The position numbers were made by a program, and so were the translations under genes. Below are positions 27,622 through 51,969 of a stretch of 64,000 nucleotides of DNA, one piece after another; within the stretch, counting starts at the first letter, position 1, and the number at the start of each line of letters is the position of its first letter. Source of the DNA: Globodera rostochiensis (lineage: Eukaryota > Nematoda > Chromadorea > Rhabditida > Heteroderidae); NCBI GenBank assembly GCA_018350325.1, contig JAEVLN010000036.1, forward strand, positions 70,103-134,102. Direction: 5' to 3'. The notes below the pieces were generated by a model. The model was not told where the DNA came from, made no database searches, and saw only the letters and a list, made by a program, of their open reading frames with translations.

Positions 27622-27627
27622 CTTGTA
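27622..27627. repeat. 6-bp target-site duplication, left (CTTGTA)
   Basis: Identical to 51,964-51,969 immediately outside the other end of the element. A 6-bp duplication is characteristic of Polinton/Maverick integration. Confidence 0.93.
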
Positions 27628-28050
27628 AGTAGTTACAGCCTTCCATTTCACCGGATTACGGTAGCCAACCCATACCTATTGAAGGGGTGGGGCGCCAATT
27701 GAGCGCCAGCCAGCCAAGTGAGCGCGGGCCACCTGAGGCCCAGCCAAGCCAGCCCCAAGCCAAAACCTATTGGCAGGGTCCTGCGCGACTTTATGCAAAT
27801 TTTGGTCCTGCGCGACCCTCTCGCGCACCTGGCTCGCGCACCTGCGCGAGATTATGCAAATTTCGCCTGCGCGACTTTATTTAATATTTATATTTTATTT
27901 ATTAATATTTTTATTTATTTTAATTCACGGCGCGAGTCACTCGCGCCTGCGCGACTTTTTTTAATTATTTAAATTTAAATTTTGAATTTTTGACTGCGCG
28001 AGATTTCAAATATTCTTAAAATTATTTTTTAATCAAATAAAATCATTTTC

Positions 28051-28122
28051 ATCCCGAGGGATTTGAACTTTCGCAGATTGGTCGTCGAACCTCGCACACT
28101 AACCACTTGGCCACAGCTTCAT
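28051..28122 (-). ncRNA. tRNA-like sequence in left TIR
   Basis: On the minus strand an A-box-like TGGCCAAGTGG and a B-box-like AGTTCAAATCCC are spaced as in a tRNA gene, and a GGT...ACC mini-stem sits at the anticodon position. The acceptor and T stems do not pair well, so it is not called a functional tRNA. It may be a tRNA-derived Pol III promoter. Sister copies: 51,469-51,540 and 50,201-50,271. Confidence 0.45.
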
Positions 28123-28477
28123 TGCGAGAAAGGGAATATAATTCGCCTATAAGCCAAAAATTTCCCAAAAATTCTTTTAACGCATTTTTTTCATTTATTT
28201 CTTTTAAATAAATATTTTAAAAATAAGAGTAATCATTTTAAAAGCCCCAGATTTAAATAATAATAATAATTATAAACGTAAAAATAAATTCTAAATATAA
28301 ACCAAAAATTTAAAACTTGAAACTTTTGCAAGTTTTGGTGACAAGATTAATTGCATTGACCAAATATTTGAAAGGGATTTGTATAGTAAACATATAAAAA
28401 ATTGCGCGCCAATTTTATTTTGAATCTTTTGAAATGGATTTCTCGATTTGATTGATGAGTTTCTATTTTTAGCTTTT

Positions 28478-28576
28478 AAATTCAAATAAAAAGGGGCCTC
28501 TTGGAGAAATTGTACCAATTTTTACTCATTGCAATCGGCATTTTTACTTTACGATTTTAGCCAAATTTTAAAAATA
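28478..28576 (+). promoter_or_regulatory. TIR-borne promoter region for the left cargo gene
   Basis: The segment AAATTCAAATAAAAAGG...TTTTTACTCATTGC lies just upstream of the ATG at 28,577 and is conserved in the opposite TIR upstream of the ATG at 51,004. AAATAAAAAGG is TATA-like. Conservation at both ends while the downstream coding regions differ suggests a shared promoter/leader. No experimental support. Confidence 0.4.
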
Positions 28577-29095
28577 ATGGCAGCTTTGCCGGACGACGAC
28601 CTGCCGCCAATACTGGACGGGCCGTTCAGCCCTGCGCGGAATGGAGGACCGGCAGAAACAAACTACAGCGACGGCGTCAAACCTTTTCGCCTTGCCGACT
28701 GCTTGCAGATTCTCGAAAGGGTTGCGCGGGATTATGACTGCATATACCCGCTGCCCAAACTCGGGTCTGGCAAGTTTTTTGGGCGTTTATATTTGAATTT
28801 TAGCACTAAACGGGACCATCACGTGGGCTGCTGTTTGCTGATCCGTTCTTTGAGCTCTGCGAATCGGCTGTACATTTTCGAGTGGCAGGAGTGTATTGAG
28901 GTTGTAATAAAAAACTTTAATAAAATTAAATTTAAACATTAGCTGAAAGGTCATCTTGAAATGGAGGATGGATCGAGCAAGCGGGTCCTGCACGAATTTT
29001 ACGAAAAATACGACTCCCTTGAGGGCTTCAACCGATTTCTGCGGGAGTGTCTGTTTAACTTTTTCTATCTGTTGTATTCCGCAGTGGAAGATTAA
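28577..29095 (+). CDS. Polinton left-end cargo gene, unknown function (two exons)
   Basis: Spliced product about 158 residues: exon 28,577-28,900, a 42-bp GT-AG intron 28,901-28,942, exon 28,943-29,095 ending TAA. The start is chosen because the right-end gene has the same start context and begins with a nearly identical peptide (DDDLPP then GPFSP). That N-terminal segment is encoded by the TIR; beyond about residue 20 the two proteins are unrelated. The remainder has mixed charge, several Cys and a hydrophobic aromatic C-terminus, without a domain I recognise. It is tail-to-tail with the protease gene, 15 bp apart. It does not match any core Polinton gene, so it is probably lineage-specific cargo. 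Confidence 0.6.
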
Positions 29096-29110
29096 TTTTT
29101 TCAAAAATAT

Positions 29111-29599
29111 TTATTGTAATTTGTTTGTTACAAAAGCATAAACAAATTCATCGGGCCTATTTGAACGATTAAACATTTGCATAACAACTTCAAAATCAAA
29201 GCCAAGTGACATAAAATAAATAAAACTGATTACATAATGACCACAAACATTAGAAAAAATTGATTGAAATATTCTTTTATTAAAATAAATTTTCTTATAT
29301 TTATCTGCCAAATATTTTTTAATCAAAGAGTTGGGCATTTCGCCATAAGAATCAAAAAAAATAAGCCTCAGTTGGCGACTTGGCCCAAATCGCGCACCAG
29401 TGAGAGCCGGGCCTGCCAGCTCTGTCCTTAATATAAAATTATTAAAAAAAACAATTTTGCAAAATATTACCAAATTAACAATCAGGCTGCAGGGGAATCT
29501 TGTACACTCTGGCAGGCAATCCGAAGGGAAGGTGCCCATAAAAAATCGCCTTGTCGCCAAATTCTCAAACAGAATCTTGTCGATGAGCCGGTTGTCCAT
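29111..29599 (-). CDS. PRO: Adenovirus-type cysteine protease, frame-disrupted
   Basis: Two exons, 29,599-29,471 and 29,426-29,111, separated by a 44-bp GT-AG intron. The predicted product of about 147 residues has the order of the adenovirus/Ulp1-like maturation protease: N-terminal LFENL region, catalytic His in SHW, FDSYG motif, and catalytic Cys in NVCGHY followed by a hydrophobic helix. In Polintons this enzyme is thought to process capsid proteins. The exon sum is one base more than a multiple of three: the frame carrying SHW and the frame carrying FDSYG are offset across an A8 run (plus strand 29,354-29,361, T8 in the gene). This is either a one-base insertion or a homopolymer error. 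The start ATG at 29,599 overlaps the end of the upstream membrane-protein ORF. Confidence 0.8.
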   Translation of the reverse strand: MDNRLIDKILFENLATRRFFMGTFPSDCLPECTRFPCSLIVNLVIFCKIVFFNNFILRTELAGPALTGARFGPSRQLRLIFFDSYGEMPNSLIKKYLADKYKKIYFNKRIFQSIFSNVCGHYVISFIYFMSLGFDFEVVMQMFNRSNRPDEFVYAFVTNKLQ

Positions 29600-29804
29600 T
29601 TTGGCGCCGAATTCTCCTCTCTCGCAGGAACAAATAAAATCCAACAGCTGCAGCCCCTGCAGTCCCAAACAAATAGAGAATGCACAGTGCAAAGTGTATT
29701 GGCGACTTCTCGATCACTTCCGGAAAACAAAGAACAACCCCCTCGCGCGGGGAAGAGGCCATTTGAATAATATTTTCCAAGGAGTAATTGTTGTTGTTGT
29801 TCAT
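29565..29804 (-). CDS. Small membrane protein of the Polinton, unknown function
   Basis: 79 residues beginning with an Asn-rich stretch (MNNNNNYSLENI). One strong predicted transmembrane segment lies at about residues 37-59 (FALCILYLFG...GFYLFL), followed by a very basic tail (RERRIRRQ), so an N-out/C-in single-pass topology is likely. The ATG overlaps the stop of the major capsid gene as ATGA, and the 3' end overlaps the protease start by 35 bp. Tight placement between capsid and protease genes argues it is real. Small membrane proteins are common in large DNA viruses, but no specific homologue is recognised. Confidence 0.5.
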   Translation of the reverse strand: MNNNNNYSLENIIQMASSPREGVVLCFPEVIEKSPIHFALCILYLFGTAGAAAVGFYLFLRERRIRRQNGQPAHRQDSV

Positions 29805-31186
29805 AAGGACAGGTCACTTGTAATTGATCTATTACGATCAATTAGAATGAGCCCGTCCGCCTCTCCGTAGGCTATTAAAGTGACGCCCTCGGGGGGAACA
29901 GGTTCGGAAAATCGAATGTTCACCGCAGTACACCCCTCTTTGATCAGCTCAAAGCCAGGCGAGTCTTCTTGCGAGTTGGTCATTTGGAAGACATAAAGGC
30001 AAAAAGCCGTCTTGAACATGCTGTAGCTGAGGCCATTGCTTTCGGCTGCACAAGCAAGGCCAAGGTGTTCCTGCGCGTCATGATAGGCCCTTGCATAATT
30101 GTTATTTTTGTAGTCCAAATTGTAGGGGTATTGGGGGTATGTTCTGCCAGAGGCCGTCAGTTCAATGTCCCTAACCTAAAAAGGGAGCAAACGGTTCAGC
30201 AAGTTTTTAATTGTTTCTTACGTTATGGTGATTAAAGAAAAAGGGGTTCTTTTGTTTATGGCCAATGTAGTTCTGGTTGGCGACTAGCCCGATGATGACC
30301 CTTCTTGGCACTTCCTCCGTGAACAAATTGGCAGAAAAGTCGTATCGGCCCCCGGTAATGAACAGGGACTTCATAAACGATTTGCGAATCCCAAATCTGG
30401 CCGGCTCAACATCCAGCTTCCTTGCAATGTCCAAACTTAGCCCATCCATCAGATCGACAGTTTTTACAATCAGCCGACAGTCGACAATTTCCAAAACAAA
30501 TTTATCTTTTTCCTTTTCTTGGTGCAACATAAAATCGTCCGACTGCAGCGCGAGCTCAATGTCAATCTCGACATTGCTAATCATGTACAAGTCTTGGTTG
30601 AATATGTCGGCACTCAGCTTGCTGATAGTTTGATAGGCTTTGCTTTCAGCCAGCGGCTTCCTTCGCTTATCATTGGCTTTGAAAGGTCAGTATCGCGAAA
30701 ATAGCCCGCCACCCCAAAATAGGCGTCCTTTGCAGCAACCGGATAACTGAGTTCCGTGTCGAGGTACACCTTGTAGCTGTACAACTGGTTGGAGTCGTAC
30801 ACCTCTCGCTGGTTGATATGCACTTTCAAGTTTCGGATGAACGTCGCCCCGGGCATTTGGATTAGCCCAACTGAGTCAGACGAGCCAAGATTACTAGGCA
30901 ACCCATCTTCGGCAATCTTTTTGATCTTAAACTCGGTGGCCACAAAGACCTTGCTGAGGTCAATGTAGCTGGTTATTGGGTGAATCTAAATTTGATTGGC
31001 GATGGAATAGGCAAAGACAAAATCAATTACCTTAAAATGGAAAGGCCTAGAGCTTATCGGGTTCAAAGTCAAATACTCCCTGTAGCTTGAGTTTGACACT
31101 GCGCAGTTTGTTGGGGGAGTTGTAAAAAAGTCCAGCCCAGCATTTGCCACTTCCGCACTCGCAACATCTACTTTTTTATACAACAT
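29801..31186 (-). CDS. MCP: Major capsid protein (double jelly-roll), frame-disrupted
   Basis: Three exons, 31,186-31,031, 30,985-30,222 and 30,175-29,801, with GT-AG introns of 45 and 46 bp; product about 431 residues. The pattern matches the Polinton major capsid protein: an N-terminal LDFFTTPPT motif, SYIDLS, the VHINQREVY then Y-KVYLDTELSYP segment, and a C-terminal half ending in a hydrophobic strand near VTLIAYGEADG. These proteins form the hexameric shell facets. The exon sum is one base short of a multiple of three: the frame with RDTDLSK shifts to the frame with KLSADIFNQD near plus-strand 30,680-30,690, with no GT-AG intron available. So a one-base deletion, or an assembly error, disrupts it. 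Upstream lies the pVI-like gene and downstream the membrane protein. Confidence 0.85.
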
Positions 31187-31197
31187 TTGGCGAACAA

Positions 31198-31716
31198 TTA
31201 ATAATAACCGAGGGAATCAAATCGTTTCTTTTTTAAAAGAGCTTTCTGGGGGACAGTTTGTCCAACAACGTCAAAAGGCTTCAAAATGATTTCCGCTTTT
31301 GTCTTTTTTCCTCTCCTCTTTCGTTTACCCCTGCCCTTTTGTAGCGAAGAAGAGGCCTTGTCCAGCAGCTTTTTCGCCCCCTCTTTTCCCTCCGCCAACA
31401 GAGCGTCCTTTATGTCGCCGCCTTTGGAGACTTGGTTGAGGACTCGCGCACCAGTTTCGAGGCCCTCCTTGCCAAGTTCAGCAGCAATATTTGCAGCATA
31501 AGGTTTAGCTGCAGAGATCATGGGGCGCAGGTAGCGCCACAAATTTCGCAGAACAGCTCCAACTCCTGCCCCTTTTTGGCGAGGGACCCCCAAAAAGTAC
31601 CCGTATCCCCGTTGAAAAGTCGGCAAGCCCTCAAAGTAGGCTATAGGCCCGCTGCCTGTTTGCTGATAAAACTGGTCCAGCCGCAAGTTGGAGCCGTCGA
31701 ATATTACACGAACCAT
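31198..31716 (-). CDS. Polinton virion-associated small protein (adenovirus pVI/pX-like candidate)
   Basis: Single exon, 172 residues. A Gly-rich QRGYGYFLGVPRQKGAG region is followed by a predicted amphipathic helix (LRNLWRYLRPMISAAKPY), an Ala/Gly/Glu-rich helical stretch, and a strongly basic segment (KGRGKRKRRGKKTKAE). Proteins with a 'GYG..G' plus amphipathic helix followed by basic residues sit next to the major capsid gene in many Polintons and have been compared with adenovirus minor core/cement proteins; that family link is inferred from pattern only. It is 11 bp upstream of the capsid start and co-oriented with it. Confidence 0.6.
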   Translation of the reverse strand: MVRVIFDGSNLRLDQFYQQTGSGPIAYFEGLPTFQRGYGYFLGVPRQKGAGVGAVLRNLWRYLRPMISAAKPYAANIAAELGKEGLETGARVLNQVSKGGDIKDALLAEGKEGAKKLLDKASSSLQKGRGKRKRRGKKTKAEIILKPFDVVGQTVPQKALLKKKRFDSLGYY

Positions 31717-31813
31717 TTTTCAAAAGGTCAGAACCTTTTTAAACTGAAGCGTCAAAACTACTTGCCCAAAATCAAACGGAACTTCCCTATAAAAATAAAT
31801 AAAGAAAAGGGCC

Positions 31814-33621
31814 TTAGAGGGGCGCGTACACATACCGGCCGGTCAGGGTTCGAATCTCAACATCCAAGACATCCACTTCGCGCGCGATTATTTTGTGAAA
31901 TAAGGGCGACTGGAAATCTTTCTCAACCACGCTCCCTGATTTGCCTTCAACTGCAATCACTTGGAGAAGATTGGCGAAAGTATTGCCGAAAACCATGCTT
32001 TCAATGATCCCACTGTTGAGGTAGATACACAAGTGGCTTACGCCGCCGCCCAAATCAACGGAATATTTGGCAAGATCCTCGTTTAGGATCTGCTGTTCCT
32101 GCTCATAGCCAAGTACGTAGGCCAGCTGGTCGGTCAACGTGATGTGCGAAATTTTGTTGTCAAAGATTTTCAGCATAAATCTCCCAATGTCCTCCATATA
32201 ATAGAAACGGAATCCTTTGACCAGCGCAATCAGCTCTTCTTTTTCCTCTCGCGTTTTTGACCCATAGTTTTCGTCGTACACTTCGCGTTCAAACAACCCT
32301 TTGAACTCTGCGATATTCCGCTGAATCTGGGCGGATGGGTTAAACGCCGGCAGCTCCCAAGGCAGCTCGGGGTGATGAATCCGATATTTATCAACAGCGT
32401 TGGAAAAATGGTATTCATCTTTTTCGTGCAGATAGTGAACATCTGGGGTTGGGTCTTTGCCCTGCACAAGGCGCATCCATCCTCCCCTATACGGCTTCAA
32501 CTCCTTGAGAAGTTCGAGCTCTCGCAGTTTAAATTTTCTTTCTTGATCTCGCCGGATTCTCTCTTCTTCGCCTGCTGGGTTAACTGCTCGTTCAATGCCG
32601 TTATTTGGGCGATTCCCTACGTCTTCAGGTTGTTTGGCAGAGCTTTCTTCCTCTTTCTTTTCGGTTTCTTCCTTTTGTTTGGCTAACCTGTCTTCCTCTT
32701 TCTTTTCGGCGGCTTCCTTTTGTTTGGACAACCTCTCTTCTTCTTTCTGGTTCTCGAGCCTTTCGTTTACCGCCTGCTGGGGCGCTTGTTTGGGGGTGCC
32801 TAACTTTTCTTCTTCTTTCTTTTTGCTTGCAGCCCCTTCTTTCGTCGCATTTTTCATCCGTTGCAGCCTCTCTGTCTCCTTACGCAAAGCCTCTTGCCGT
32901 CGTCTCTCAGTTTCTTTGCGGCCATCTTCAATCCATTTCTGCGCTTTACGCTTGCGCTCATTTTCTTTTTCCTGCGCAAGTCTCTCTGTTTCATTCGGCG
33001 GGACAAGCTCCCTCTCGCGAACTGCACCTCTCTGTTCTGGGGGTCTTACATTTGCCAAAGGGGGTTGTCGTGTTCTCTCAGCTGCTTGTTCACTTGCAAA
33101 TTTTGTCTGGCTCATTGGCAGGAGAGGGGCTTCAACACTCTCTTTTCGCTCTTCCTTAGCGACTTGCAGGCCAGTAAGCCCTCCTTCCTCTTCTTCAACG
33201 ACTTGTACATCAACAAGCTCTCCTTCCTCTTCCTCGTCTTCTTGAAAGGCGGCCCTTTTTCGCGTCATCAGGCGTTCCATCTCGGCAATCATGCCATGAT
33301 GGATTCCACGCTCAAGTTGTTGTGGCGAAAGAAAACTCCCCCTTGGCACTTTGAACCTATATTTGCGCCCATCTCGCAGGTGGACAATCACGTATTGTTT
33401 TTCAAGCGTTCCCACTGTTGCCCAACTTAAACGTAATATTGGCAAAAAGCTCTTACCCAATTGGCCCACCTGTTGGGGTAAATTATGCCAGACATTCCCA
33501 CCATCCACCCGGGCCCCTCAAACACCAATTTCTTTGGCAGATGAACTTTGAATTTATTCGTTTTATTTCCAACAAATCCAGGCGTATTGCTGGGCAAAAT
33601 TACAAAAAAGGAGTTGCTCAT
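31814..33621 (-). CDS. mCP: Penton-like minor capsid protein with large charged coiled-coil insert (intact copy)
   Basis: Two exons, 33,621-33,470 and 33,425-31,814, joined across a 44-bp GT-AG intron; 587 residues, no frame break. The N-terminus has the hallmark of the Polinton penton-like family: FFVILPSNT, a polar -NKTNKFKVHLPK- segment, W-VGMSGIIYP and, across the splice, SW. The C-terminus has the matching CIYLNSGII and LLQVIAV strands. Between them, at about residues 110-350, lies a very large Glu/Lys/Arg/Gln-rich insert with EEERLSKQKE-type heptads, predicted as a long coiled coil, which is unusual for this protein. It would occupy capsid vertices. This copy contains the left breakpoint of the 6-kb tandem duplication, at 32,188. 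Confidence 0.8.
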
Positions 33622-33652
33622 TTTTAACAAATAAATAAAGTGATAAGTGAGA

Positions 33653-34409
33653 TCACTTCCCGCCTGTGTACGGGTGATAATGGCCGTTCTTTGTCGGCGC
33701 GTCCTTCTTTTGGTGCTTCATGATCAGGTCAGTGCAATCAAAGTTCAGCTTGGCACAGTCGCGGCAGAAAGTTTGGGTGAACTCCAAACGGCCTTCGCCA
33801 TTTTGAGGGGTCAGCATGAAACGGCGGTCGCCCATTTGAAAGTTGGCTGTCTGGCAATCCTTGCACATAAACGTGAAGGTGCCGTACTAAATGGGAAAAG
33901 ATTAAGTACAGTTATTTGCAGGGGAGCTCTTACCTTGGGGCGTGCGAGCTTCCAAAAGATGGTTGGGTAGTCAAAGACACTTGTCTGACTCTTTTCGTCG
34001 CCTGAAGTGAATAAATCGCAAGGCCAGCGATCTTAGAATACCATCGCTTTCGTTGGCCCGAATTTTTTTTGGGCGGCAGCTCCTCTTGTTCTTGCTGCTG
34101 TTTGTCCCAGCGAGGCTTGCGGCCCCGTTTGGTTAGCGCGGGTTTTTCCAGCAGGGGCTTTCGGTCGTCGTCGTAGTCGTCGTTCAAAATGATGACATCA
34201 TTATCCGGCTTTTCTAAGGGGCTTTGTTTAAAAAAAGTTTTTAATAATTGAAAAAGATACCTTGTTTAAATTTGCGCGCTCCATTGTTGTTGTCCTTGCT
34301 TGAATCCCCAAAGGTTTGCTCTATAAAGTGTCGCTTATGGCGATTTAAAAATTTTGATATTACTTTGACTTTCCTCCACAAATTGTTCATTTTGTCTTTT
34401 AGGCGGCAT
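33653..34409 (-). CDS. AT-hook and CxxC zinc-motif protein, copy 1 (five exons)
   Basis: Exons best supported: 34,409-34,364, 34,320-34,261, 34,213-34,042, 34,001-33,934 and 33,886-33,653, with introns of 40-47 bp. Reading order is a short basic N-terminus (MPPKRQNE), an acidic Asp-rich stretch, the AT-hook core RGRKP in a basic context, a Gln/Glu stretch, then a C-terminal module with MCKDC and FCRDC pairs that could bind zinc. DNA or chromatin binding is likely. The exon sum is one base over a multiple of three; the excess can be placed in an A8 run of exon 3 (T8 at about 34,063-34,070 on the plus strand). An alternative acceptor about 30 bp downstream would avoid the frame break but is less pyrimidine-rich. 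It is divergent from the PAZ gene. Confidence 0.55.
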
Positions 34410-34570
34410 TAATAAAAAAATAACAAAAATAAAGGTTTTAGAGAGAATGATCATTAAAAATTTGTGGGGGAAAAGGAAGAAGGGCGAACAGGTGTTAGCC
34501 CGCAGGGACCTCCAGACAGAGGCGTTACGAAATATGCGCCACGCCCATTCGCTTCTTAAGGGATAGAAAA

Positions 34571-34601
<31 letters not shown>

Positions 34602-34726
34602 GAGCGAGAGAGAGTACGTGTTGAGAGAGCTTGAAGATAGAGAGAAAAAGGCGGAAAAATCAAATTCAAATGCTAGTACCCCAAGCCGCTTATTGATTAC
34701 CCCGTCATTCTTGCGTTTGTTGAAAG
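34410..34726. promoter_or_regulatory. Divergent intergenic region with (GA)n tract, copy 1
   Basis: Lies between the minus-strand AT-hook gene and the plus-strand PAZ gene, so it probably carries both promoters. An imperfect (GA)n tract covers about 34,571-34,634. A plus-strand frame starting at ATG 34,447 runs through this region to a TAA inside the PAZ first exon, interrupted only by TAG 34,564-34,566. Its C-terminal part (LLKDGPIDYRLIKIAKL) looks protein-like, so an overlapping or broken gene cannot be excluded. Confidence 0.4.
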
Positions 34727-35269
34727 ATGGTCCCATTGACTACCGCCTTATCAAAATTGCTAAATTGTAAAGCGGAAAACTTGGCGGAATATTTGAATAA
34801 CCCGGAGGCGGTGAACAAAGCGTCCGTTTACTTAACCGGCAAAACGCTCAAAACAACATACTTGAGCCGTGACGGCACAACAAAACAAGTCAAATTTGGC
34901 AATTTTTCACTAAAGTCAGCGTCGGACACCTACGCTTTTGAAGGATTTCTTGGCATGTTTTGTCATCATTTTTCCTCCTCGCACTAGCCCCTCCCTTTTC
35001 AGAGGCCAAAGTCCACCAATATTTCTACATAAAATACCGAATTCGCCTTCTTTACCCTCAGTTGAAGTGTGTGGTGGAGTTCCACAACAAGGGACACAAC
35101 AAATATTACCCCTTGGGCAAGTTTAAAATAAGGGGATTGCGAGAATTGGGCCCCCTATTCAGAGTTGTTGGCCATTGACGAGAGTGCCGAAGGAGGCGAC
35201 AAGTCGACTGAAGACAACAACTACTTGGACTACTTGAGTTTCCGAACTTGGCAGACTCCCGTCTATTGA
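34727..35269 (+). CDS. Stand-alone Argonaute-type PAZ domain protein, copy 1
   Basis: Three exons (34,727-34,952, 35,003-35,116, 35,163-35,269) sum to exactly 148 codons plus stop. Both introns (50 and 46 bp) use GC rather than GT donors (G|GCATGT, G|GCAAGT) and normal AG acceptors. The product reads as an Argonaute L1 linker (LTGKTLKTTY, then SRDGTTKQVKFG) followed by a PAZ core: VHQYF, a basic KYRIRLLYPQLKC segment and YYPLELLAI, which align with the 'V.eYF..rY.i.L.yP.lPcv......yyPlEl' pattern. PAZ binds the 3' end of small RNAs. The Tyr/Phe residues of the pocket look present. No MID or PIWI follows; after a short acidic tail the frame stops and a different gene begins 11 bp later. A decoy that sequesters small RNAs is an attractive inference, not shown. 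Confidence 0.72.
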
Positions 35270-35280
35270 GCGGCGCAAGA

Positions 35281-35751
35281 ATGAAACGGGCAAGGCCGTC
35301 GCAGGAGTTTCCGGAGATTGAGTTCAACGTCAACACAATGGGTCTGACCGTGTATTGCCCACGTCACCTGAAAACCCCGCGCTTGGTGCCATGGGATCAG
35401 CCGGGCCGCTGCTCTCGCTGCAGGAGCGGCACTGTCGAGCTCGACTACTTCATTCAAGCAGAGGGCGTTACAGTGTTCTCAACTCGGCTCAAAAATGGAG
35501 GCGAAAACTTTGTGCCATTCGACGAGATCGGTAATGGAGCTTTTTTCGGCCAATCAATAATTTGAATTTCAGTCGATTTTGGCGACAACGCCAAATTCCG
35601 AATAAGGTCGCGCAACAAAGTGTTCACTTTGCCATTGAGACACCCGGAGGTTTGGCAAGCAGAACCTGTTGCAGGGGCCGACCAAGCGTTGGCAGCTCAA
35701 CCGCCGGCAAAAGAAATGAAAAACGGAGAGGAGCCAAAAGGCCCCAATTGA
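35281..35751 (+). CDS. Zinc-ribbon-like small protein, unknown function, copy 1
   Basis: Two exons, 35,281-35,530 and 35,573-35,751, with a 42-bp GT-AG intron; 142 residues. The start ATG is followed by a basic MKRARPSQEF. A CPRH...(about 18 residues)...CSRCRSG arrangement gives at least three Cys and a His suitable for one zinc site. The C-terminal third is Ala/Pro/Lys-rich and probably disordered. The gene lies between the PAZ protein and the ATPase, on the same strand, and could be co-expressed with either. No family is recognised. Confidence 0.55.
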
Positions 35752-35794
35752 TTCACTGACCCTTGAACCGATCAATCATTCTAATAGTTTTGTA

Positions 35795-36490
35795 ATGGAC
35801 TATCCAAGAATAAATGAGCGCGAGTTAAAATTTCCCATCCCTTGCGGGATTATTGTCAGTGGCCCCTCATCGTCGGGCAAAACCCAACTGGTCCTTCGCC
35901 TATTAAGCTGCGCATATGAAATGTTTGAACCTCCCCCTAAGGCAATAGGTTAGCGCGTAATGGGGCCCGCGATATATTTGGCTGATTAAGTTTGGGCGTA
36001 CGGCGAATACTCTGCGCAGATTCCTGAATTGGAGAGGCAGGGCATAATCGTTCATGCAGGAGCCCCATCCGACGAAATGTTGAACAAGTTGCCAAAACCC
36101 TTTCTCATTGTATACGACGATTTAATGGGCGAGATTGACGCGAAGAAGTTGGCAGACCTGTACACCAAAAAGTCCCACCATAACAACTTTGCGGTGATGT
36201 TCCTCACGCAAAACCTATTCGACAAGGCAATGAGAGTGCCAAGGTCCAACGCCCAGTACATTTTCCTCATGAGGGCGCCAAACGACATGTTGAGCATTCG
36301 CAATTTGGCCACTCAAATATTCCCTCGCGAGCAGGGGTTTCTAATCGACGCGTATAAACAGGCGTGCGCTGAGCCGTATGGGTATTTGTTGGTGACCCTT
36401 CACGCAAACACTAACAACATTTTACGACTGAGGACAAACATTTTTCCGGAGGACGACGAAAAAATTATATTTGTTTCCAAAAATGGGTAA
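35795..36490 (+). CDS. ATP: FtsK/HerA-type genome-packaging ATPase, copy 1
   Basis: Two exons, 35,795-35,948 and 35,991-36,490, with a 42-bp GT-AG intron; 217 residues with no frame break. The Walker A motif is GPSSSGKT at about residues 25-32. The Walker B is FLIVYDDLMGE, with hydrophobics before DD, and a downstream FLTQNLF resembles sensor-type residues of A32-like packaging ATPases. In Polintons and related viruses this enzyme is thought to pump DNA into capsids. Its stop overlaps the next start (ATGGGTAA). Copy 2 differs by at least one base, giving Met here and Ile there just before RVPRSNAQ. Confidence 0.88.
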
Positions 36491-36878
36491 ACAAGATAAG
36501 AAACAGCTGATCGGACAACGTGTGCTGGAAAATTACGAATATTTGAAAACCCTTGGAAAGACATCCTCCCAGAAAAAGATACGTCATTTGTTAAGCAGCG
36601 CCGGGTGTGAGGAGCTGTTGACGTTGGTGGAAATCTGTTTGAATATTTTAAACGGAAGTTTTTGCCTGACCAACAAACAAAAACAGAAGATTGCCCCCTT
36701 TGCGAACTTTATTCGAAAGTTGGCTCGAGCGAGAAGCGAAAAGAGTGCCAAGAAATTGGTTCTTCAATCCGGCGGTTCACTGTTTGCTCCCCTATTGGCG
36801 CCGATATTGATTGAGGCGGCGCGATATTTGCTTTCGGCACAAAAAGATGGCCAACAAACTAATTCTGCTGCCAATTGA
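36483..36878 (+). CDS. Small Polinton protein with hydrophobic C-terminus, copy 1
   Basis: 131 residues, starting at ATG 36,483 inside the end of the ATPase gene. The N-terminal two thirds are helical and basic, including a QKKIRHLLSSAG stretch; then a basic ARSEKSAKKLVLQSGGSLF segment leads into a hydrophobic stretch (APLLAPILIEAARYLL). Short proteins with a 'basic + GG(x)L + hydrophobic' ending next to the ATPase are common in Polintons, and a virion or membrane role is possible. No enzymatic motif. The 3' end overlaps the next gene by 32 bp. Confidence 0.55.
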   Translation: MGKQDKKQLIGQRVLENYEYLKTLGKTSSQKKIRHLLSSAGCEELLTLVEICLNILNGSFCLTNKQKQKIAPFANFIRKLARARSEKSAKKLVLQSGGSLFAPLLAPILIEAARYLLSAQKDGQQTNSAAN

Positions 36879-37617
36879 ACACTACAGGGGGCTGGTTGCG
36901 GCGAGGGAGAAAATAGACGATGACGTCACCGAGCAGACAAACTTTGGCTTTGTCAAACAACAGTTTGAAAAGGCAAAGAGAAAGAGGGCGGCGAATGTCA
37001 ACGAAAAGAGTGCAGAGTACAATCAGCAGTTGAGGAGATATTTAAAGCTTCGCAAAGAGGTCAAGGACAAGCCGGTCAAAGTCCAACTCAGCAATGGAAT
37101 GCGCCTGATGACTAAACCACCGGCAACAGGCGTACAATTGAAGCCTGGACCTGAAGAAGTTGAAGAGACTATTGTGATTGGTGGCAGTGAAGCTGATGAT
37201 GATGAGGCTGCGACAATAAGCACCCCCAAGTTTTCTACGCCAAAGGAGGTGGAAGTTGGCCCAGAGCCAAGGCCCAGCAGGAAGAGGGATCTCAAAAAGC
37301 AGGAGATAATGGCCAAAGAGCAGCAGCTTTTGTCGATAATAAAATCAGACCCTAAGCGGTTTGGCGTAAATGCGCGCGATAAAATCATCAACCCCTCAAC
37401 AGGGCGAGAATTTATTGATTTTGATTTGACGAGGGCTATTGAACGCCTGGTGAACCCCCGTCCGGAAAATGCCCCGTCGCCAAGCGGTACTCGGGAGCTG
37501 ACAAAAAAACTCTTGCAAGACCCAACCGCCAGGCAGTTGCTCAATCCGCTATTTGTCGGATCCGGAAAGCCCATCAAACGCGCAGGATTTTGCCCCTCAA
37601 AATGGAAGAAAAAATAA
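36847..37617 (+). CDS. Conserved-type Polinton basic protein, unknown function, copy 1
   Basis: 256 residues, starting at ATG 36,847 (MANKLILLPIEHY). I choose this start over an upstream non-ATG extension because the M-x-KL-ILLP-x-x-HY beginning resembles a recurring N-terminus of Polinton structural proteins. After a helical charged N-terminal third comes a Pro/Glu-rich linker (EEVEETIVIGGSEADDDEAA), then a basic helical region and a DKIINPSTGREFIDFDL segment. It overlaps the integrase start by 16 bp. Probably a virion or core protein; the family assignment is tentative. Confidence 0.5.
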   Translation: MANKLILLPIEHYRGLVAAREKIDDDVTEQTNFGFVKQQFEKAKRKRAANVNEKSAEYNQQLRRYLKLRKEVKDKPVKVQLSNGMRLMTKPPATGVQLKPGPEEVEETIVIGGSEADDDEAATISTPKFSTPKEVEVGPEPRPSRKRDLKKQEIMAKEQQLLSIIKSDPKRFGVNARDKIINPSTGREFIDFDLTRAIERLVNPRPENAPSPSGTRELTKKLLQDPTARQLLNPLFVGSGKPIKRAGFCPSKWKKK

Positions 37618-38230
37618 ATAAAATATACACGGACCCCTCCAATCCTGGGGGGTTTGCGGGCGCAAAGCCTCTATACGCGGCAGTCAAAAAGGAACACCCT
37701 GGCGTGAAGAGGGCAGAGTTTGACGACTTTTTGCGGGGAAGTACCACCTATACGCTGTTTAAACCTAAGCGCCAAAAATTCCGCCGCCTAAGAACAATCC
37801 CCGGCGGGTTTATGACCGGTGAGTTACCCTCCCTTTAGCCCTTTTAACTTTGCGTTCAGATGTTCAAGCCGACTTGGCAGACTTCCAAGCCCTATCGCGA
37901 AAGAATTCGGGTAATCGGTACCTTTTGTTGGCAGTTGATGTGTTGTCGAGGCGGATGTTTGGAGCGCCGGTTAAAAGTAAAAAGCCTGCGGACATGAAAA
38001 GGGCCTTTGAAGAGCTTTTTGGCCAAATGCCAAAACTTCCGGAAACGCTGTACACGGACCGAGGGCTGGAGTTTGTGGCAAAGCCTCTCAAGGAATTTTA
38101 CGCCGAAAAGGGCATCCAAAAGTTTGAGACAAGTTCAAAGAAGAAGGCCGCCGTTGCAGAGCGCGCAATACGTACGCTCAAAACCCGTCTGTACAAGTAT
38201 TTTTCTGCCAAAAATATGTCCTCCATATAA
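37602..38230 (+). pseudogene. INT: Integrase, copy 1, 3'-truncated by the duplication join
   Basis: Identical in layout to the intact copy at 43,631: exon 37,602-37,818, a 41-bp intron 37,819-37,859, then the catalytic exon from 37,860. At 38,216 the sequence switches to inverted minor-capsid DNA and the frame stops at 38,228-38,230 after five foreign codons. The three catalytic acidic residues (QAD, YTDRG, AERAIRTLK) are still encoded, but the C-terminal region and chromodomain-like tail are lost. Such a product would be expected to lack normal target or DNA-end handling. Confidence 0.85.
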
Positions 38231-39650
38231 TAGAAACGGAATCCTTTGACCAGCGCAATCAGCTCTTCTTTTTCCTCTCGCGTTTTTGACCCATAGTTTT
38301 CGTCGTACACTTCGCGTTCAAACAACCCTTTGAACTCTGCGATATTCCGCTGAATCTGGGCGGATGGGTTAAACGCCGGCAGCTCCCAAGGCAGCTCGGG
38401 GTGATGAATCCGATATTTATCAACAGCGTTGGAAAAATGGTATTCATCTTTTTCGTGCAGATAGTGAACATCTGGGGTTGGGTCTTTGCCCTGCACAAGG
38501 CGCATCCATCCTCCCCTATACGGCTTCAACTCCTTGAGAAGTTCGAGCTCTCGCAGTTTAAATTTTCTTTCTTGATCTCGCCGGATTCTCTCTTCTTCGC
38601 CTGCTGGGTTAACTGCTCGTTCAATGCCGTTATTTGGGCGATTCCCTACGTCTTCAGGTTGTTTGGCAGAGCTTTCTTCCTCTTTCTTTTCGGTTTCTTC
38701 CTTTTGTTTGGCTAACCTGTCTTCCTCTTTCTTTTCGGCGGCTTCCTTTTGTTTGGACAACCTCTCTTCTTCTTTCTGGTTCTCGAGCCTTTCGTTTACC
38801 GCCTGCTGGGGCGCTTGTTTGGGGGTGCCTAACTTTTCTTCTTCTTTCTTTTTGCTTGCAGCCCCTTCTTTCGTCGCATTTTTCATCCGTTGCAGCCTCT
38901 CTGTCTCCTTACGCAAAGCCTCTTGCCGTCGTCTCTCAGTTTCTTTGCGGCCATCTTCAATCCATTTCTGCGCTTTACGCTTGCGCTCATTTTCTTTTTC
39001 CTGCGCAAGTCTCTCTGTTTCATTCGGCGGGACAAGCTCCCTCTCGCGAACTGCACCTCTCTGTTCTGGGGGTCTTACATTTGCCAAAGGGGGTTGTCGT
39101 GTTCTCTCAGCTGCTTGTTCACTTGCAAATTTTGTCTGGCTCATTGGCAGGAGAGGGGCTTCAACACTCTCTTTTCGCTCTTCCTTAGCGACTTGCAGGC
39201 CAGTAAGCCCTCCTTCCTCTTCTTCAACGACTTGTACATCAACAAGCTCTCCTTCCTCTTCCTCGTCTTCTTGAAAGGCGGCCCTTTTTCGCGTCATCAG
39301 GCGTTCCATCTCGGCAATCATGCCATGATGGATTCCACGCTCAAGTTGTTGTGGCGAAAGAAAACTCCCCCTTGGCACTTTGAACCTATATTTGCGCCCA
39401 TCTCGCAGGTGGACAATCACGTATTGTTTTTCAAGCGTTCCCACTGTTGCCCAACTTAAACGTAATATTGGCAAAAAGCTCTTACCCAATTGGCCCACCT
39501 GTTGGGGTAAATTATGCCAGACATTCCCACCATCCACCCGGGCCCCTCAAACACCAATTTCTTTGGCAGATGAACTTTGAATTTATTCGTTTTATTTCCA
39601 ACAAATCCAGGCGTATTGCTGGGCAAAATTACAAAAAAGGAGTTGCTCAT
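38098..39650 (-). pseudogene. mCP: Minor capsid protein, copy 2, 3'-truncated and fused to antisense integrase
   Basis: Copy of 33,621-32,188 with the same first intron (39,498-39,455). At 38,216 the reading frame leaves minor capsid sequence just after YYMEDI and continues for about 40 codons into the antisense strand of the truncated integrase before stopping. The N-terminal strands and the complete coiled-coil insert are kept, while the C-terminal part (CIYLNSGII and LLQVIAV region) is lost, so a functional vertex protein is unlikely. Confidence 0.85.
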
Positions 39651-39681
39651 TTTTAACAAATAAATAAAGTGATAAGTGAGA

Positions 39682-40438
39682 TCACTTCCCGCCTGTGTAC
39701 GGGTGATAATGGCCGTTCTTTGTCGGCGCGTCCTTCTTTTGGTGCTTCATGATCAGGTCAGTGCAATCAAAGTTCAGCTTGGCACAGTCGCGGCAGAAAG
39801 TTTGGGTGAACTCCAAACGGCCTTCGCCATTTTGAGGGGTCAGCATGAAACGGCGGTCGCCCATTTGAAAGTTGGCTGTCTGGCAATCCTTGCACATAAA
39901 CGTGAAGGTGCCGTACTAAATGGGAAAAGATTAAGTACAGTTATTTGCAGGGGAGCTCTTACCTTGGGGCGTGCGAGCTTCCAAAAGATGGTTGGGTAGT
40001 CAAAGACACTTGTCTGACTCTTTTCGTCGCCTGAAGTGAATAAATCGCAAGGCCAGCGATCTTAGAATACCATCGCTTTCGTTGGCCCGAATTTTTTTTG
40101 GGCGGCAGCTCCTCTTGTTCTTGCTGCTGTTTGTCCCAGCGAGGCTTGCGGCCCCGTTTGGTTAGCGCGGGTTTTTCCAGCAGGGGCTTTCGGTCGTCGT
40201 CGTAGTCGTCGTTCAAAATGATGACATCATTATCCGGCTTTTCTAAGGGGCTTTGTTTAAAAAAAGTTTTTAATAATTGAAAAAGATACCTTGTTTAAAT
40301 TTGCGCGCTCCATTGTTGTTGTCCTTGCTTGAATCCCCAAAGGTTTGCTCTATAAAGTGTCGCTTATGGCGATTTAAAAATTTTGATATTACTTTGACTT
40401 TCCTCCACAAATTGTTCATTTTGTCTTTTAGGCGGCAT
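39682..40438 (-). CDS. AT-hook and CxxC zinc-motif protein, copy 2
   Basis: Same five-exon layout as 34,409-33,653 shifted by 6,029 bp (exons 40,438-40,393, 40,349-40,290, 40,242-40,071, 40,030-39,963, 39,915-39,682). It carries the same A8-associated extra base. The shared disruption means it either predates the duplication, is a systematic error, or the splice model is wrong. Confidence 0.5.
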
Positions 40439-40599
40439 TAATAAAAAAATAACAAAAATAAAGGTTTTAGAGAGAATGATCATTAAAAATTTGTGGGGGA
40501 AAAGGAAGAAGGGCGAACAGGTGTTAGCCCGCAGGGACCTCCAGACAGAGGCGTTACGAAATATGCGCCACGCCCATTCGCTTCTTAAGGGATAGAAAA

Positions 40600-40630
<31 letters not shown>

Positions 40631-40755
40631 GAGCGAGAGAGAGTACGTGTTGAGAGAGCTTGAAGATAGAGAGAAAAAGGCGGAAAAATCAAATTCAAAT
40701 GCTAGTACCCCAAGCCGCTTATTGATTACCCCGTCATTCTTGCGTTTGTTGAAAG
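40439..40755. promoter_or_regulatory. Divergent intergenic region with (GA)n tract, copy 2
   Basis: Apparently identical to 34,410-34,726, including (GA)n at about 40,600-40,663 and the interrupted overlapping plus-strand frame. Confidence 0.4.
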
Positions 40756-41298
40756 ATGGTCCCATTGACTACCGCCTTATCAAAATTGCTAAATTGTAAA
40801 GCGGAAAACTTGGCGGAATATTTGAATAACCCGGAGGCGGTGAACAAAGCGTCCGTTTACTTAACCGGCAAAACGCTCAAAACAACATACTTGAGCCGTG
40901 ACGGCACAACAAAACAAGTCAAATTTGGCAATTTTTCACTAAAGTCAGCGTCGGACACCTACGCTTTTGAAGGATTTCTTGGCATGTTTTGTCATCATTT
41001 TTCCTCCTCGCACTAGCCCCTCCCTTTTCAGAGGCCAAAGTCCACCAATATTTCTACATAAAATACCGAATTCGCCTTCTTTACCCTCAGTTGAAGTGTG
41101 TGGTGGAGTTCCACAACAAGGGACACAACAAATATTACCCCTTGGGCAAGTTTAAAATAAGGGGATTGCGAGAATTGGGCCCCCTATTCAGAGTTGTTGG
41201 CCATTGACGAGAGTGCCGAAGGAGGCGACAAGTCGACTGAAGACAACAACTACTTGGACTACTTGAGTTTCCGAACTTGGCAGACTCCCGTCTATTGA
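40756..41298 (+). CDS. Stand-alone Argonaute-type PAZ domain protein, copy 2
   Basis: Exons 40,756-40,981, 41,032-41,145 and 41,192-41,298; no difference from copy 1 noticed, including both GC-AG introns. Domain reading and caveats as for 34,727-35,269. Duplication doubles the dose of this gene. Confidence 0.72.
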
Positions 41299-41309
41299 GC
41301 GGCGCAAGA

Positions 41310-41780
41310 ATGAAACGGGCAAGGCCGTCGCAGGAGTTTCCGGAGATTGAGTTCAACGTCAACACAATGGGTCTGACCGTGTATTGCCCACGTCACCTGA
41401 AAACCCCGCGCTTGGTGCCATGGGATCAGCCGGGCCGCTGCTCTCGCTGCAGGAGCGGCACTGTCGAGCTCGACTACTTCATTCAAGCAGAGGGCGTTAC
41501 AGTGTTCTCAACTCGGCTCAAAAATGGAGGCGAAAACTTTGTGCCATTCGACGAGATCGGTAATGGAGCTTTTTTCGGCCAATCAATAATTTGAATTTCA
41601 GTCGATTTTGGCGACAACGCCAAATTCCGAATAAGGTCGCGCAACAAAGTGTTCACTTTGCCATTGAGACACCCGGAGGTTTGGCAAGCAGAACCTGTTG
41701 CAGGGGCCGACCAAGCGTTGGCAGCTCAACCGCCGGCAAAAGAAATGAAAAACGGAGAGGAGCCAAAAGGCCCCAATTGA
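41310..41780 (+). CDS. Zinc-ribbon-like small protein, copy 2
   Basis: Exons 41,310-41,559 and 41,602-41,780; same 142-residue product with CPRH...CSRC as copy 1. Confidence 0.55.
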
Positions 41781-41823
41781 TTCACTGACCCTTGAACCGA
41801 TCAATCATTCTAATAGTTTTGTA

Positions 41824-42519
41824 ATGGACTATCCAAGAATAAATGAGCGCGAGTTAAAATTTCCCATCCCTTGCGGGATTATTGTCAGTGGCCCCTCATC
41901 GTCGGGCAAAACCCAACTGGTCCTTCGCCTATTAAGCTGCGCATATGAAATGTTTGAACCTCCCCCTAAGGCAATAGGTTAGCGCGTAATGGGGCCCGCG
42001 ATATATTTGGCTGATTAAGTTTGGGCGTACGGCGAATACTCTGCGCAGATTCCTGAATTGGAGAGGCAGGGCATAATCGTTCATGCAGGAGCCCCATCCG
42101 ACGAAATGTTGAACAAGTTGCCAAAACCCTTTCTCATTGTATACGACGATTTAATGGGCGAGATTGACGCGAAGAAGTTGGCAGACCTGTACACCAAAAA
42201 GTCCCACCATAACAACTTTGCGGTGATGTTCCTCACGCAAAACCTATTCGACAAGGCAATAAGAGTGCCAAGGTCCAACGCCCAGTACATTTTCCTCATG
42301 AGGGCGCCAAACGACATGTTGAGCATTCGCAATTTGGCCACTCAAATATTCCCTCGCGAGCAGGGGTTTCTAATCGACGCGTATAAACAGGCGTGCGCTG
42401 AGCCGTATGGGTATTTGTTGGTGACCCTTCACGCAAACACTAACAACATTTTACGACTGAGGACAAACATTTTTCCGGAGGACGACGAAAAAATTATATT
42501 TGTTTCCAAAAATGGGTAA
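41824..42519 (+). CDS. ATP: FtsK/HerA-type packaging ATPase, copy 2
   Basis: Exons 41,824-41,977 and 42,020-42,519; Walker A GPSSSGKT and Walker B IVYDD retained. It differs from copy 1 by G to A at about 42,258 (Met to Ile before RVPRSN), the only substitution I saw between the two 6-kb units. Confidence 0.88.
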
Positions 42520-42907
42520 ACAAGATAAGAAACAGCTGATCGGACAACGTGTGCTGGAAAATTACGAATATTTGAAAACCCTTGGAAAGACATCCTCCCA
42601 GAAAAAGATACGTCATTTGTTAAGCAGCGCCGGGTGTGAGGAGCTGTTGACGTTGGTGGAAATCTGTTTGAATATTTTAAACGGAAGTTTTTGCCTGACC
42701 AACAAACAAAAACAGAAGATTGCCCCCTTTGCGAACTTTATTCGAAAGTTGGCTCGAGCGAGAAGCGAAAAGAGTGCCAAGAAATTGGTTCTTCAATCCG
42801 GCGGTTCACTGTTTGCTCCCCTATTGGCGCCGATATTGATTGAGGCGGCGCGATATTTGCTTTCGGCACAAAAAGATGGCCAACAAACTAATTCTGCTGC
42901 CAATTGA
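42512..42907 (+). CDS. Small Polinton protein with hydrophobic C-terminus, copy 2
   Basis: Same 131-residue product and the same overlap with the ATPase stop as 36,483-36,878. Confidence 0.55.
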   Translation: MGKQDKKQLIGQRVLENYEYLKTLGKTSSQKKIRHLLSSAGCEELLTLVEICLNILNGSFCLTNKQKQKIAPFANFIRKLARARSEKSAKKLVLQSGGSLFAPLLAPILIEAARYLLSAQKDGQQTNSAAN

Positions 42908-43646
42908 ACACTACAGGGGGCTGGTTGCGGCGAGGGAGAAAATAGACGATGACGTCACCGAGCAGACAAACTTTGGCTTTGTCAAACAACAGTTTGAAAA
43001 GGCAAAGAGAAAGAGGGCGGCGAATGTCAACGAAAAGAGTGCAGAGTACAATCAGCAGTTGAGGAGATATTTAAAGCTTCGCAAAGAGGTCAAGGACAAG
43101 CCGGTCAAAGTCCAACTCAGCAATGGAATGCGCCTGATGACTAAACCACCGGCAACAGGCGTACAATTGAAGCCTGGACCTGAAGAAGTTGAAGAGACTA
43201 TTGTGATTGGTGGCAGTGAAGCTGATGATGATGAGGCTGCGACAATAAGCACCCCCAAGTTTTCTACGCCAAAGGAGGTGGAAGTTGGCCCAGAGCCAAG
43301 GCCCAGCAGGAAGAGGGATCTCAAAAAGCAGGAGATAATGGCCAAAGAGCAGCAGCTTTTGTCGATAATAAAATCAGACCCTAAGCGGTTTGGCGTAAAT
43401 GCGCGCGATAAAATCATCAACCCCTCAACAGGGCGAGAATTTATTGATTTTGATTTGACGAGGGCTATTGAACGCCTGGTGAACCCCCGTCCGGAAAATG
43501 CCCCGTCGCCAAGCGGTACTCGGGAGCTGACAAAAAAACTCTTGCAAGACCCAACCGCCAGGCAGTTGCTCAATCCGCTATTTGTCGGATCCGGAAAGCC
43601 CATCAAACGCGCAGGATTTTGCCCCTCAAAATGGAAGAAAAAATAA
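42876..43646 (+). CDS. Conserved-type Polinton basic protein, copy 2
   Basis: Same 256-residue product as 36,847-37,617; the 3' end overlaps the start of the intact integrase. Confidence 0.5.
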   Translation: MANKLILLPIEHYRGLVAAREKIDDDVTEQTNFGFVKQQFEKAKRKRAANVNEKSAEYNQQLRRYLKLRKEVKDKPVKVQLSNGMRLMTKPPATGVQLKPGPEEVEETIVIGGSEADDDEAATISTPKFSTPKEVEVGPEPRPSRKRDLKKQEIMAKEQQLLSIIKSDPKRFGVNARDKIINPSTGREFIDFDLTRAIERLVNPRPENAPSPSGTRELTKKLLQDPTARQLLNPLFVGSGKPIKRAGFCPSKWKKK

Positions 43647-44784
43647 ATAAAATATACACGGACCCCTCCAATCCTGGGGGGTTTGCGGGCGCAAAGCCTC
43701 TATACGCGGCAGTCAAAAAGGAACACCCTGGCGTGAAGAGGGCAGAGTTTGACGACTTTTTGCGGGGAAGTACCACCTATACGCTGTTTAAACCTAAGCG
43801 CCAAAAATTCCGCCGCCTAAGAACAATCCCCGGCGGGTTTATGACCGGTGAGTTACCCTCCCTTTAGCCCTTTTAACTTTGCGTTCAGATGTTCAAGCCG
43901 ACTTGGCAGACTTCCAAGCCCTATCGCGAAAGAATTCGGGTAATCGGTACCTTTTGTTGGCAGTTGATGTGTTGTCGAGGCGGATGTTTGGAGCGCCGGT
44001 TAAAAGTAAAAAGCCTGCGGACATGAAAAGGGCCTTTGAAGAGCTTTTTGGCCAAATGCCAAAACTTCCGGAAACGCTGTACACGGACCGAGGGCTGGAG
44101 TTTGTGGCAAAGCCTCTCAAGGAATTTTACGCCGAAAAGGGCATCCAAAAGTTTGAGACAAGTTCAAAGAAGAAGGCCGCCGTTGCAGAGCGCGCAATAC
44201 GTACGCTCAAAACCCGTCTGTACAAGTATTTTTCTGCCAAAAATACCTCAACTTGGGTTGATGTACTTGCGGAATTTTTGGCTGCCATAAATAATTCGGT
44301 GTGCCGCGCAACCGGCTTAAAGCCCCTCGACATTGACGAACAAAACGCGCGGGAGGTGTGGAAAAAAGTATATGGCGAAGCTATTGAGCCCTCTAGCAAG
44401 GGACCAAAGATCAAATTAGGGGAAAATGTCCGGATCCCTGAACCCAAACATATCTTTGAAAAGGGTATGAAAGTTCAAATTTATTGTTTTTAAAATTTAT
44501 TTTTAGGATATATGCCAAACTATTCGGACCACGTTTACACGGTTGATGAACGCCGTTCATCCAAGCCCGAACACTATTTTCTCAAAGATTATTATGGGAC
44601 AAAATTGAAAAGAAAATTTTATTTGCCCGAATTGACAAAAGTAAAAGTGGACAAAAATACACTGTACAGGGTGGAGAAGAAGTACAAGGAGAGGATGAGA
44701 GACGGTCAAAAAGAGATGTTGGTAAAATTTATTGGATTTCTGGAAAAATATTGGGTTACAAGTGATGATTTTGTCGAACAATAA
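43631..44784 (+). CDS. INT: Polinton rve-family integrase with chromodomain-like tail (intact copy)
   Basis: Three exons, 43,631-43,847, 43,889-44,464 and 44,507-44,784, with GT-AG introns of 41 and 42 bp; 356 residues, no frame break. ATG 43,631 is chosen over an upstream TTG. The N-terminal helical region ends in a basic FKPKRQKFRRLRTIPGG segment. The catalytic core has the D,D(35)E arrangement: QADLADF (first Asp, just after the splice), LYTDRGLEF (second Asp) and AVAERAIRTLK (Glu). The C-terminus contains YRVEKKYKERMRDGQKEMLV, close to the chromodomain-like module of Polinton integrases. It joins element ends to target DNA, giving the 6-bp duplication. It is tail-to-tail with the polymerase, 22 bp apart. 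Confidence 0.9.
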
Positions 44785-44806
44785 ATTTAATTTAAAAAAA
44801 GACAAT

Positions 44807-50040: not shown

Positions 50041-50079
50041 AAAACGGCCGAGAAAACGAAAGGCTTGAACAAAATGTAA

Positions 50080-50605
50080 TTTTAAAATATTATTTATACA
50101 TTAAAAATATTTAATTAAAAGAAATAAATGAGAAAAAAGCGTTAAAAGAATTTTTGGGGAAATTTTTGGCTTATTGGCGAATTATATTCCCTTTCTCTCA
50201 ATGTTACGGTGGCCAAGTGGTTAATGTGCGAGGTTCGGCACCGACGAGCGAGAGTTCAAACCCCGCTCGATGAAAATGATTTTATTTGATTAAAAAATAA
50301 TTTTAAAAATATTTGAAATCTCGCGCAGTCAAAAATTCAAAATTTAAATTTAAATAATTTAAAAAAGTGAGCAGGGTGCGCAAGTACCTTGCGCAGTGAA
50401 AAAAAAAATAAAAATATTAAAATAAACAATATACATATAATAAAGTTGCCCAGGAGAGGTGGTTTGCGCAAGTCAAAAAAATTTGCATAATTTCGCGCAG
50501 GGTGCGCAAGTGTGACTCGTAGGGTAAAAAATTTACATAAAGTTGCGCAGGCCCAAAAGGCAGGGGGATTTGCGCGAGAGGCCCCCTTCAAGACCTATGG
50601 GGGGG
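50080..50605 (+). repeat. Internal TIR-derived segment (third TIR copy, partial)
   Basis: Aligns in direct orientation with the outer half of the right TIR (about 51,355-51,845): GCGTTAAAAGAATTTTTGG, the tRNA-like block, TCTCGCGCAGTCAAAAATTC and the CGCGCAGG/ATAAAGTTGCGC repeats. It is more diverged from both true TIRs than they are from each other. It sits directly upstream of the polymerase start and downstream of the right cargo gene, so it could be a relic of an older element end or of a nested insertion. Confidence 0.75.
50201..50271 (+). ncRNA. tRNA-like sequence in internal TIR-derived segment
   Basis: A-box TGGCCAAGTGG and B-box AGTTCAAACCC are retained despite divergence of surrounding bases. 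T-stem pairing is incomplete. Same class as the copies in both TIRs. Confidence 0.4.
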
Positions 50606-50659
50606 GGGCAAAAGCCCTTTTGTGCAGTGATTGAGTTAATTATTATAAATTATTTTAAT

Positions 50660-51004
50660 TTATTTCGCCGCACCTTTAAATCGCCCACTGCAAGCCTGTG
50701 CCGCTGCCAGGCACATCCAATTCTCTCCATTGAACTGCTCGGCGTCCAACTCCTTGTTCACTGTCGGTTGTTTCCGTTGTGCGCGTACTGCTGCTTTTGG
50801 TTGCGCAGGAACCTGAAAAAAACCCCGAACACTTAGAAAACGTTTTTATAGTTTATTAAAGGGCCCCACAATCTCCTCATGATGAAGGTGTTCAAGTACA
50901 GCTTCCAGCGGCGGTGCTTCTTCCAGCAGGGTATCGTCATCCATTGCAGGGCTGAACGGGCCCTCCAAAAGTGGTGGCAGGTCGTCATCCGCCAAAAATG
51001 CCAT
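50660..51004 (-). CDS. Polinton right-end cargo gene, unknown function (two exons)
   Basis: Exons 51,004-50,870 and 50,812-50,660 separated by a 57-bp GT-AG intron with a T7CAG acceptor; 95 residues, frame intact. The first 20 residues (DDDLPPLLEGPFSPA) are TIR-encoded and nearly match the left cargo protein; the rest is different: an acidic stretch (MDDDTLLEEAPPLEA), a His-rich EHLHHEE, then a basic Ala/Gln-rich region and a short NWMCLAAAQACS segment. No domain recognised. The start is supported by the conserved TIR promoter and leader. Confidence 0.5.
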
Positions 51005-51963: not shown

Positions 51964-51969
51964 CTTGTA
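51964..51969. repeat. 6-bp target-site duplication, right (CTTGTA)
   Basis: Identical to 27,622-27,627. Confidence 0.93.

Follow-up and report, generated by a model that had tools for sequence, protein, structure and literature searches.

The 64-kb stretch of Globodera rostochiensis DNA analyzed here (the window; contig JAEVLN010000036.1, positions 70,103 to 134,102) holds a complete Polinton of 24,336 bp, in which a gene at 34727-35269 encodes a stand-alone PAZ domain. In the predicted splice model, three exons, stop included, encode a protein of 148 amino acids, confirming the three-exon frame and the PAZ core words that the original prediction had read at this locus. The window gene belongs to a family of 18 close copies in the genome (L001-L017 and L019, of which L003 and L004 lie in the window; L018 and L020 are counted as continuations of L001 and L012), all genome-wide counts being taken from the window's own assembly only (92.6 Mb, 80 contigs). 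The gene, its second copy and its neighbors are as follows:

34727..34952, plus strand: PAZ exon 1, encoding an L1-like part and the start of the PAZ domain
34953..35002, plus strand: PAZ intron 1, GC-AG, 50 nt, with donor and acceptor retained by all 18 close copies
35003..35116, plus strand: PAZ exon 2, encoding the PAZ core from VHQYF to YYPL
35117..35162, plus strand: PAZ intron 2, GC-AG, 46 nt, with donor and acceptor likewise retained by all 18
35163..35269, plus strand: PAZ exon 3, encoding ELLAI and a short tail, with the stop
40756..41298, plus strand: second, identical PAZ copy (exons 40756-40981, 41032-41145 and 41192-41298)
33656..34408, minus strand: divergently transcribed gene or genes upstream of PAZ, seen as open reading frames (ORFs) and adjoining PAZ in each of the 18 close copies
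35281..35748, plus strand: gene on the 3' side of PAZ, with two exons by our reading of the sequence

For intron 1, GT-AG alternatives were rejected, as the combinations tried lose the frame, run into a stop or depend on a weak acceptor, whereas the GC-AG choice for intron 2 rests on our reading of the sequence together with the sites kept in the close copies. Intron lengths differ among the close copies, the exons of intact copies are free of insertions and deletions, the 148-codon frame is uninterrupted in 16 of 18 (L013 and L019 are shifted), and the neighbors on both sides are the same in all 18. A chance frame or wrong exon joins were also rejected, given the same splice sites in the 18 copies and relatives with one open frame. 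Both introns of the window gene are GC-AG, whereas 18 of 20 distant PAZ genes consist of one open frame. No Pfam match was obtained for a piece of the divergent upstream gene (33656-33886) or for the first exon piece of the downstream gene (35212-35562).

A profile search identified the encoded domain: residues 32-121 of the window protein match Pfam PAZ (PF02170) with an E of 1.9e-6 (28.3 bits), and the single window sequence matches the PAZ domain of human eIF2C1 (AGO1; E 0.0036). With E values of at most 0.1 (lowest 3.7e-11), all 14 aligned members of the group match PAZ, none matches another family at that threshold, and a profile built from the members matches the human AGO2 PAZ domain over profile columns 4-123 (E 1.9e-11). 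The divergent relatives have the PAZ fold; a Foldseek search of BFVD, a library of predicted viral proteins, with one model found nothing at E 0.001 or better. In its sequence profile, its fold and its boundaries, which take in the L1 helices and PAZ, the Polinton PAZ resembles that of Argonaute (PF02170; approximately residues 227-350 of human AGO2), but it is encoded alone by a mobile element, with no PIWI and with tails of its own. The pocket chemistry at AGO2 positions 271, 294, 311, 315 and 316 is retained in one of two alignments. We conclude from the sequence comparisons that the window protein is a PAZ domain, as predicted, far beyond chance once its relatives are included. The C-terminal tails of distant members L021-L025, L027, L033 and L037-L039 share a GR-x-x-(C/L)-(S/T)Q motif that recurs near the end.

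The same gene was sought in related Polintons and found, beyond the 18 close places, in 20 divergent elements (20 of the weaker places, at 30-40% identity, examined with approximately 10 kb each). At least one other Polinton gene lies near PAZ in all 20 of these stretches (39 of the 220 window ORFs served as tblastn queries, E 1e-4), and since they have such neighbors and no PIWI lies near them among the matches listed, we rejected the idea that they are ordinary host Argonautes. In 18 of the 20, a single open frame spans the PAZ match, so that these copies need no splicing; stops interrupt L035 and L036. PAZ runs toward the 3' end of PolB in 19 of 20, with PolB matches at distances of 61-1,833 nt; the L034 stretch yields no PolB match, but an integrase is present. 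Capsid-like genes occur in the same stretch as PAZ in six of the 20 elements, 81-1,758 nt off. The context differs in the window family, where PAZ lies between the divergent gene and the gene at 35281, and where the window's PolB end is 3.5 kb from the nearer PAZ copy, with an ATPase-like gene and the integrase in between; the PAZ gene has moved within the window-family elements. Further protein searches added 12 places, several weak, partial or with stops and known as search matches only, bringing the PAZ-like loci to 50. One locus, L046 (C5:2617400-2618000), is an orphan PAZ-like frame to which the profile of the Polinton PAZ assigns 43 bits and which has no PIWI or PolB match near it among the matches listed.

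The prediction that PAZ stands alone here also held. The genome contains at least 36 PIWI (PF02171) matches, and among the matches listed the nearest to any of the 50 PAZ-like loci on shared contigs is 199,916 bp away. The ArgoL1 and ArgoL2 models, which find few host Argonautes, gave one match and five sub-cut-off matches, respectively, and all six lie outside the 50 loci; apart from one ArgoL2 match, each sits within 5 kb of a PIWI match. The Polinton PAZ gene is therefore a stand-alone gene, with PIWI, ArgoL1 and ArgoL2 not found nearby and MID not searched for on its own.

The ratio of nonsynonymous to synonymous substitution rates (dN/dS) was 0.099-0.201 in all 14 comparisons of two clade-A with seven clade-B close copies and 0.087-0.196 in nine of 11 distant pairs, the remaining pairs being L038/L039 (0.52 on 11 differences) and L021/L022 (saturated). 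PAZ identity tracks PolB identity across 17 elements (Mantel r 0.96, 0 of 9,999 permutations) and across nine representatives (r 0.93, 3 of 9,999 permutations); the 17 are those with both PolB pieces among 19 with an intact PAZ, L026 and L034 being dropped. The PolB of the window element is 35-47% identical to those of the other eight representatives. Because PAZ co-diverges with PolB, the gene has long been carried by the element and its capture is probably old. Judged from these coding-sequence comparisons, PAZ is under purifying selection and is inherited with PolB over deep divergence. It is a gene of many divergent Polinton lineages in one genome and not a one-off capture.

The original prediction, that the element captured a segment of a host Argonaute, consequently stands in that the domain is of Argonaute type and fails in attributing the event to the window element alone. 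As to whether the source was an Argonaute of the same host, a tree with host Argonaute PAZ pieces (71 columns; seven of 18 close and 18 of 20 divergent copies, omitting host rows L047, L050 and L052 with fewer than 35 letters and L049, near-identical to L048) is poorly resolved: a single Polinton clade is compatible with the data (approximately unbiased test, p 0.364), and only 6% of 200 bootstrap trees show a single Polinton clade with a single change.

PolB clusters detected with PF03175 (n = 40, a sample biased because this model misses PolBs such as the window's) have PAZ within 15 kb in 21 cases, two of which share one PAZ, and lack it within that distance in 19, which led us to reject PAZ as a universal Polinton core gene. 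In the flanks of nine of the 19 PAZ-less clusters, 2.9 kb downstream of PolB each, PAZ was found in none. None of six long ORFs from PAZ-less Polinton flanks matched a Pfam family above the cut-off. An ORF of 187 amino acids lies downstream of PolB in the PAZ-less flanks L059, L060 and L061; those of L059 and L061 have no Pfam match.

The element that carries the window gene is alike to described Polinton/Maverick elements in its 6-bp target site duplication, long terminal inverted repeats (TIRs) with AG ends, rve integrase and PolB (the latter through homologous elements), bearing out the prediction that the gene is Polinton-borne, and unlike them in its added PAZ gene. The TIRs are approximately 930 bp long and 92.6% identical, and GC content is 46.6% between them versus 26.6% in the flanks. 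Its features are as follows:

27622..27627: left target site duplication CTTGTA, an exact 6-bp repeat outside the AG...CT termini
27628..51963, no strand assigned: complete Polinton, delimited by the target site duplication and the termini AGTAGTTAC, with TIRs and integrase
27628..28557, plus strand: left TIR, 92.6% identical to the right TIR over 940 columns
51029..51963, minus strand: right TIR, pairing with the left TIR
51964..51969: right target site duplication CTTGTA, the same 6-bp repeat as the left copy
29114..31719, minus strand: conserved cluster with the inferred label capsid, beside PAZ in several other elements
35795..36490, plus strand: ATPase-like gene with Walker A motif GPSSSGKT, read from the sequence
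43852..44490, plus strand: integrase, rve (Pfam PF00665, E 4.4e-9)
44810..50100, minus strand: PolB gene in pieces, recognized via homologous elements whose PolB matches PF03175
32187..44245: tandem duplication of 6,029 bp, in which 32187-38216 recurs at 38216-44245 with one mismatch (36232)

The window's own PolB does not match PF03175, and its pieces tested alone gave no Pfam match at all; nor did a piece of the ATPase-like gene (35990-36487) or the three pieces tested of the conserved cluster. As to packaging genes, a Walker A motif and a conserved cluster that probably encodes capsid proteins were observed. The PAZ gene is present twice in the window because the 6,029-bp stretch is duplicated within the element, through either a recent event or an assembly error; two frames are truncated by the duplication, namely the integrase in its first copy (37823-38227) and the 31817-33517 frame in its second (38101-39546). 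The AT-rich host flank at 54964-63970 holds five tandem repeats of approximately 1,857 bp, identical in the 300-nt pieces compared. Across the assembly the SL1 leader has 122 exact matches (reversed control, 0), as befits a nematode host; the matches listed include regular arrays at C12:4258591-4283811 (approximately 1.2-kb spacing) and C23:4804578-4823263 (approximately 1.6 kb).

We know of no described Polinton with a PAZ gene. No relative emerged from IMG/VR, whether searched with a PolB piece or with the PAZ alignment (551 pattern matches for the latter), or from GTDB genomes (five pattern matches); being virus and prokaryote collections, these say little about other nematodes. No Polinton PAZ gene appeared in open-licence PMC full texts among the matches listed, although the nematode-Polinton survey of Jeong et al. 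(2023) may mention one. In the passages checked of texts containing both 'Polinton' and 'PAZ', the latter is a place or author name or belongs to a host PIWI gene annotation (PMC6128900), and a word search of the main text of PMC11071308 returned neither PAZ nor Argonaute.

Isolated PAZ domains can grip RNA 3' ends, as structures with RNA illustrate, and nematodes silence transposons through Argonaute-bound small RNAs. The Polinton protein (L1 helices and PAZ with a short or disordered tail) would bind small-RNA 3' ends in the usual pocket, whether these are single-stranded or protrude by 2 nt from duplexes cut by Dicer. Because it has no PIWI it cannot slice, and it may instead compete with the Argonautes of the host for small RNAs or for the duplexes from which these arise, a competition that would blunt small-RNA silencing and shield the element. 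We assign a probability of roughly 55% to this reading, that the selectively kept Polinton PAZ binds small RNAs and blunts host silencing. The broader proposal, of PAZ-only proteins as an old, selectively kept gene class of nematode Polintons in which the 3'-end grip of Argonaute, captured before the sampled Polinton lineages split, now serves as a counter-silencing factor, stands in our judgment at even odds. Small-RNA-binding viral suppressors such as tombusvirus p19 would share with it only the proposed principle, that small RNA is kept from Argonaute; p19-type suppressors, unlike what is proposed for the Polinton PAZ, are not known to be Argonaute-derived.

Several observations weigh against a small-RNA-binding, counter-silencing PAZ. 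The score of the window copy is just below the curated Pfam cut-off of 28.8 bits; where AGO2 has Y279, the window family and members of the L026/L028 type have V or I; R277 is matched by K or Q or has no counterpart; and many rows of the alignment guided by a hidden Markov model show a non-aromatic residue in the column of 294. The PAZ-less PolB clusters show that Polintons here can do without PAZ, the short tree leaves the origin of the domain, including one versus several captures, without resolution, and a place beside PolB, often near capsid-like genes, is also consistent with a replication or virion role.

That role is the first alternative, in which PAZ would grip the 3' ends of the element's own DNA or RNA for replication, packaging or integration, unrelated to silencing. 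The position of PAZ at the PolB 3' end, the nearby capsid-like genes, the co-divergence with PolB and a crystal structure that, by its title, contains PAZ with a deoxynucleotide overhang (1si2) all agree with it, but PAZ is not required for Polinton replication as such, as none was found beside 19 of 40 PolB clusters, and the window family keeps its PAZ away from the PolB end; we consider this alternative possible but unlikely. A protein decoy, in which L1-PAZ competes for Argonaute partners (Dicer, loading factors) without binding RNA, would explain why the whole L1-PAZ unit and not the pocket alone is retained and why some pocket positions vary, yet the other aromatic and basic pocket positions are retained across members only 30-40% identical, which makes a decoy distinctly doubtful. 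Capture of small RNAs for the element's own use, for example against competing Polintons or viruses, would suit the many PAZ-bearing lineages within one genome, but with no PIWI alongside and no Pfam effector domain in the other window genes tested it appears quite improbable. Finally, a defunct piece of Argonaute that the element happens to carry, or an artefact of joining unrelated exons, could be argued from the sub-cut-off window score, the two shifted close copies and the two divergent copies with stops, but it is already contradicted by the open, splicing-free frames of the other 18 divergent copies, by purifying selection and by the retained splice sites, and has next to no credibility.

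A small-RNA-binding PAZ that blunts silencing would mean that Polintons may turn a piece of the host silencing machinery against the host. The selectively kept gene corresponds exactly to the small-RNA 3'-end-binding unit of Argonaute, which makes it a concrete and testable counter-silencing candidate; if true, it would clearly exemplify the use, by a virus-like element, of one domain captured from host defence, and the finding bears on how Polintons persist and spread in nematodes.
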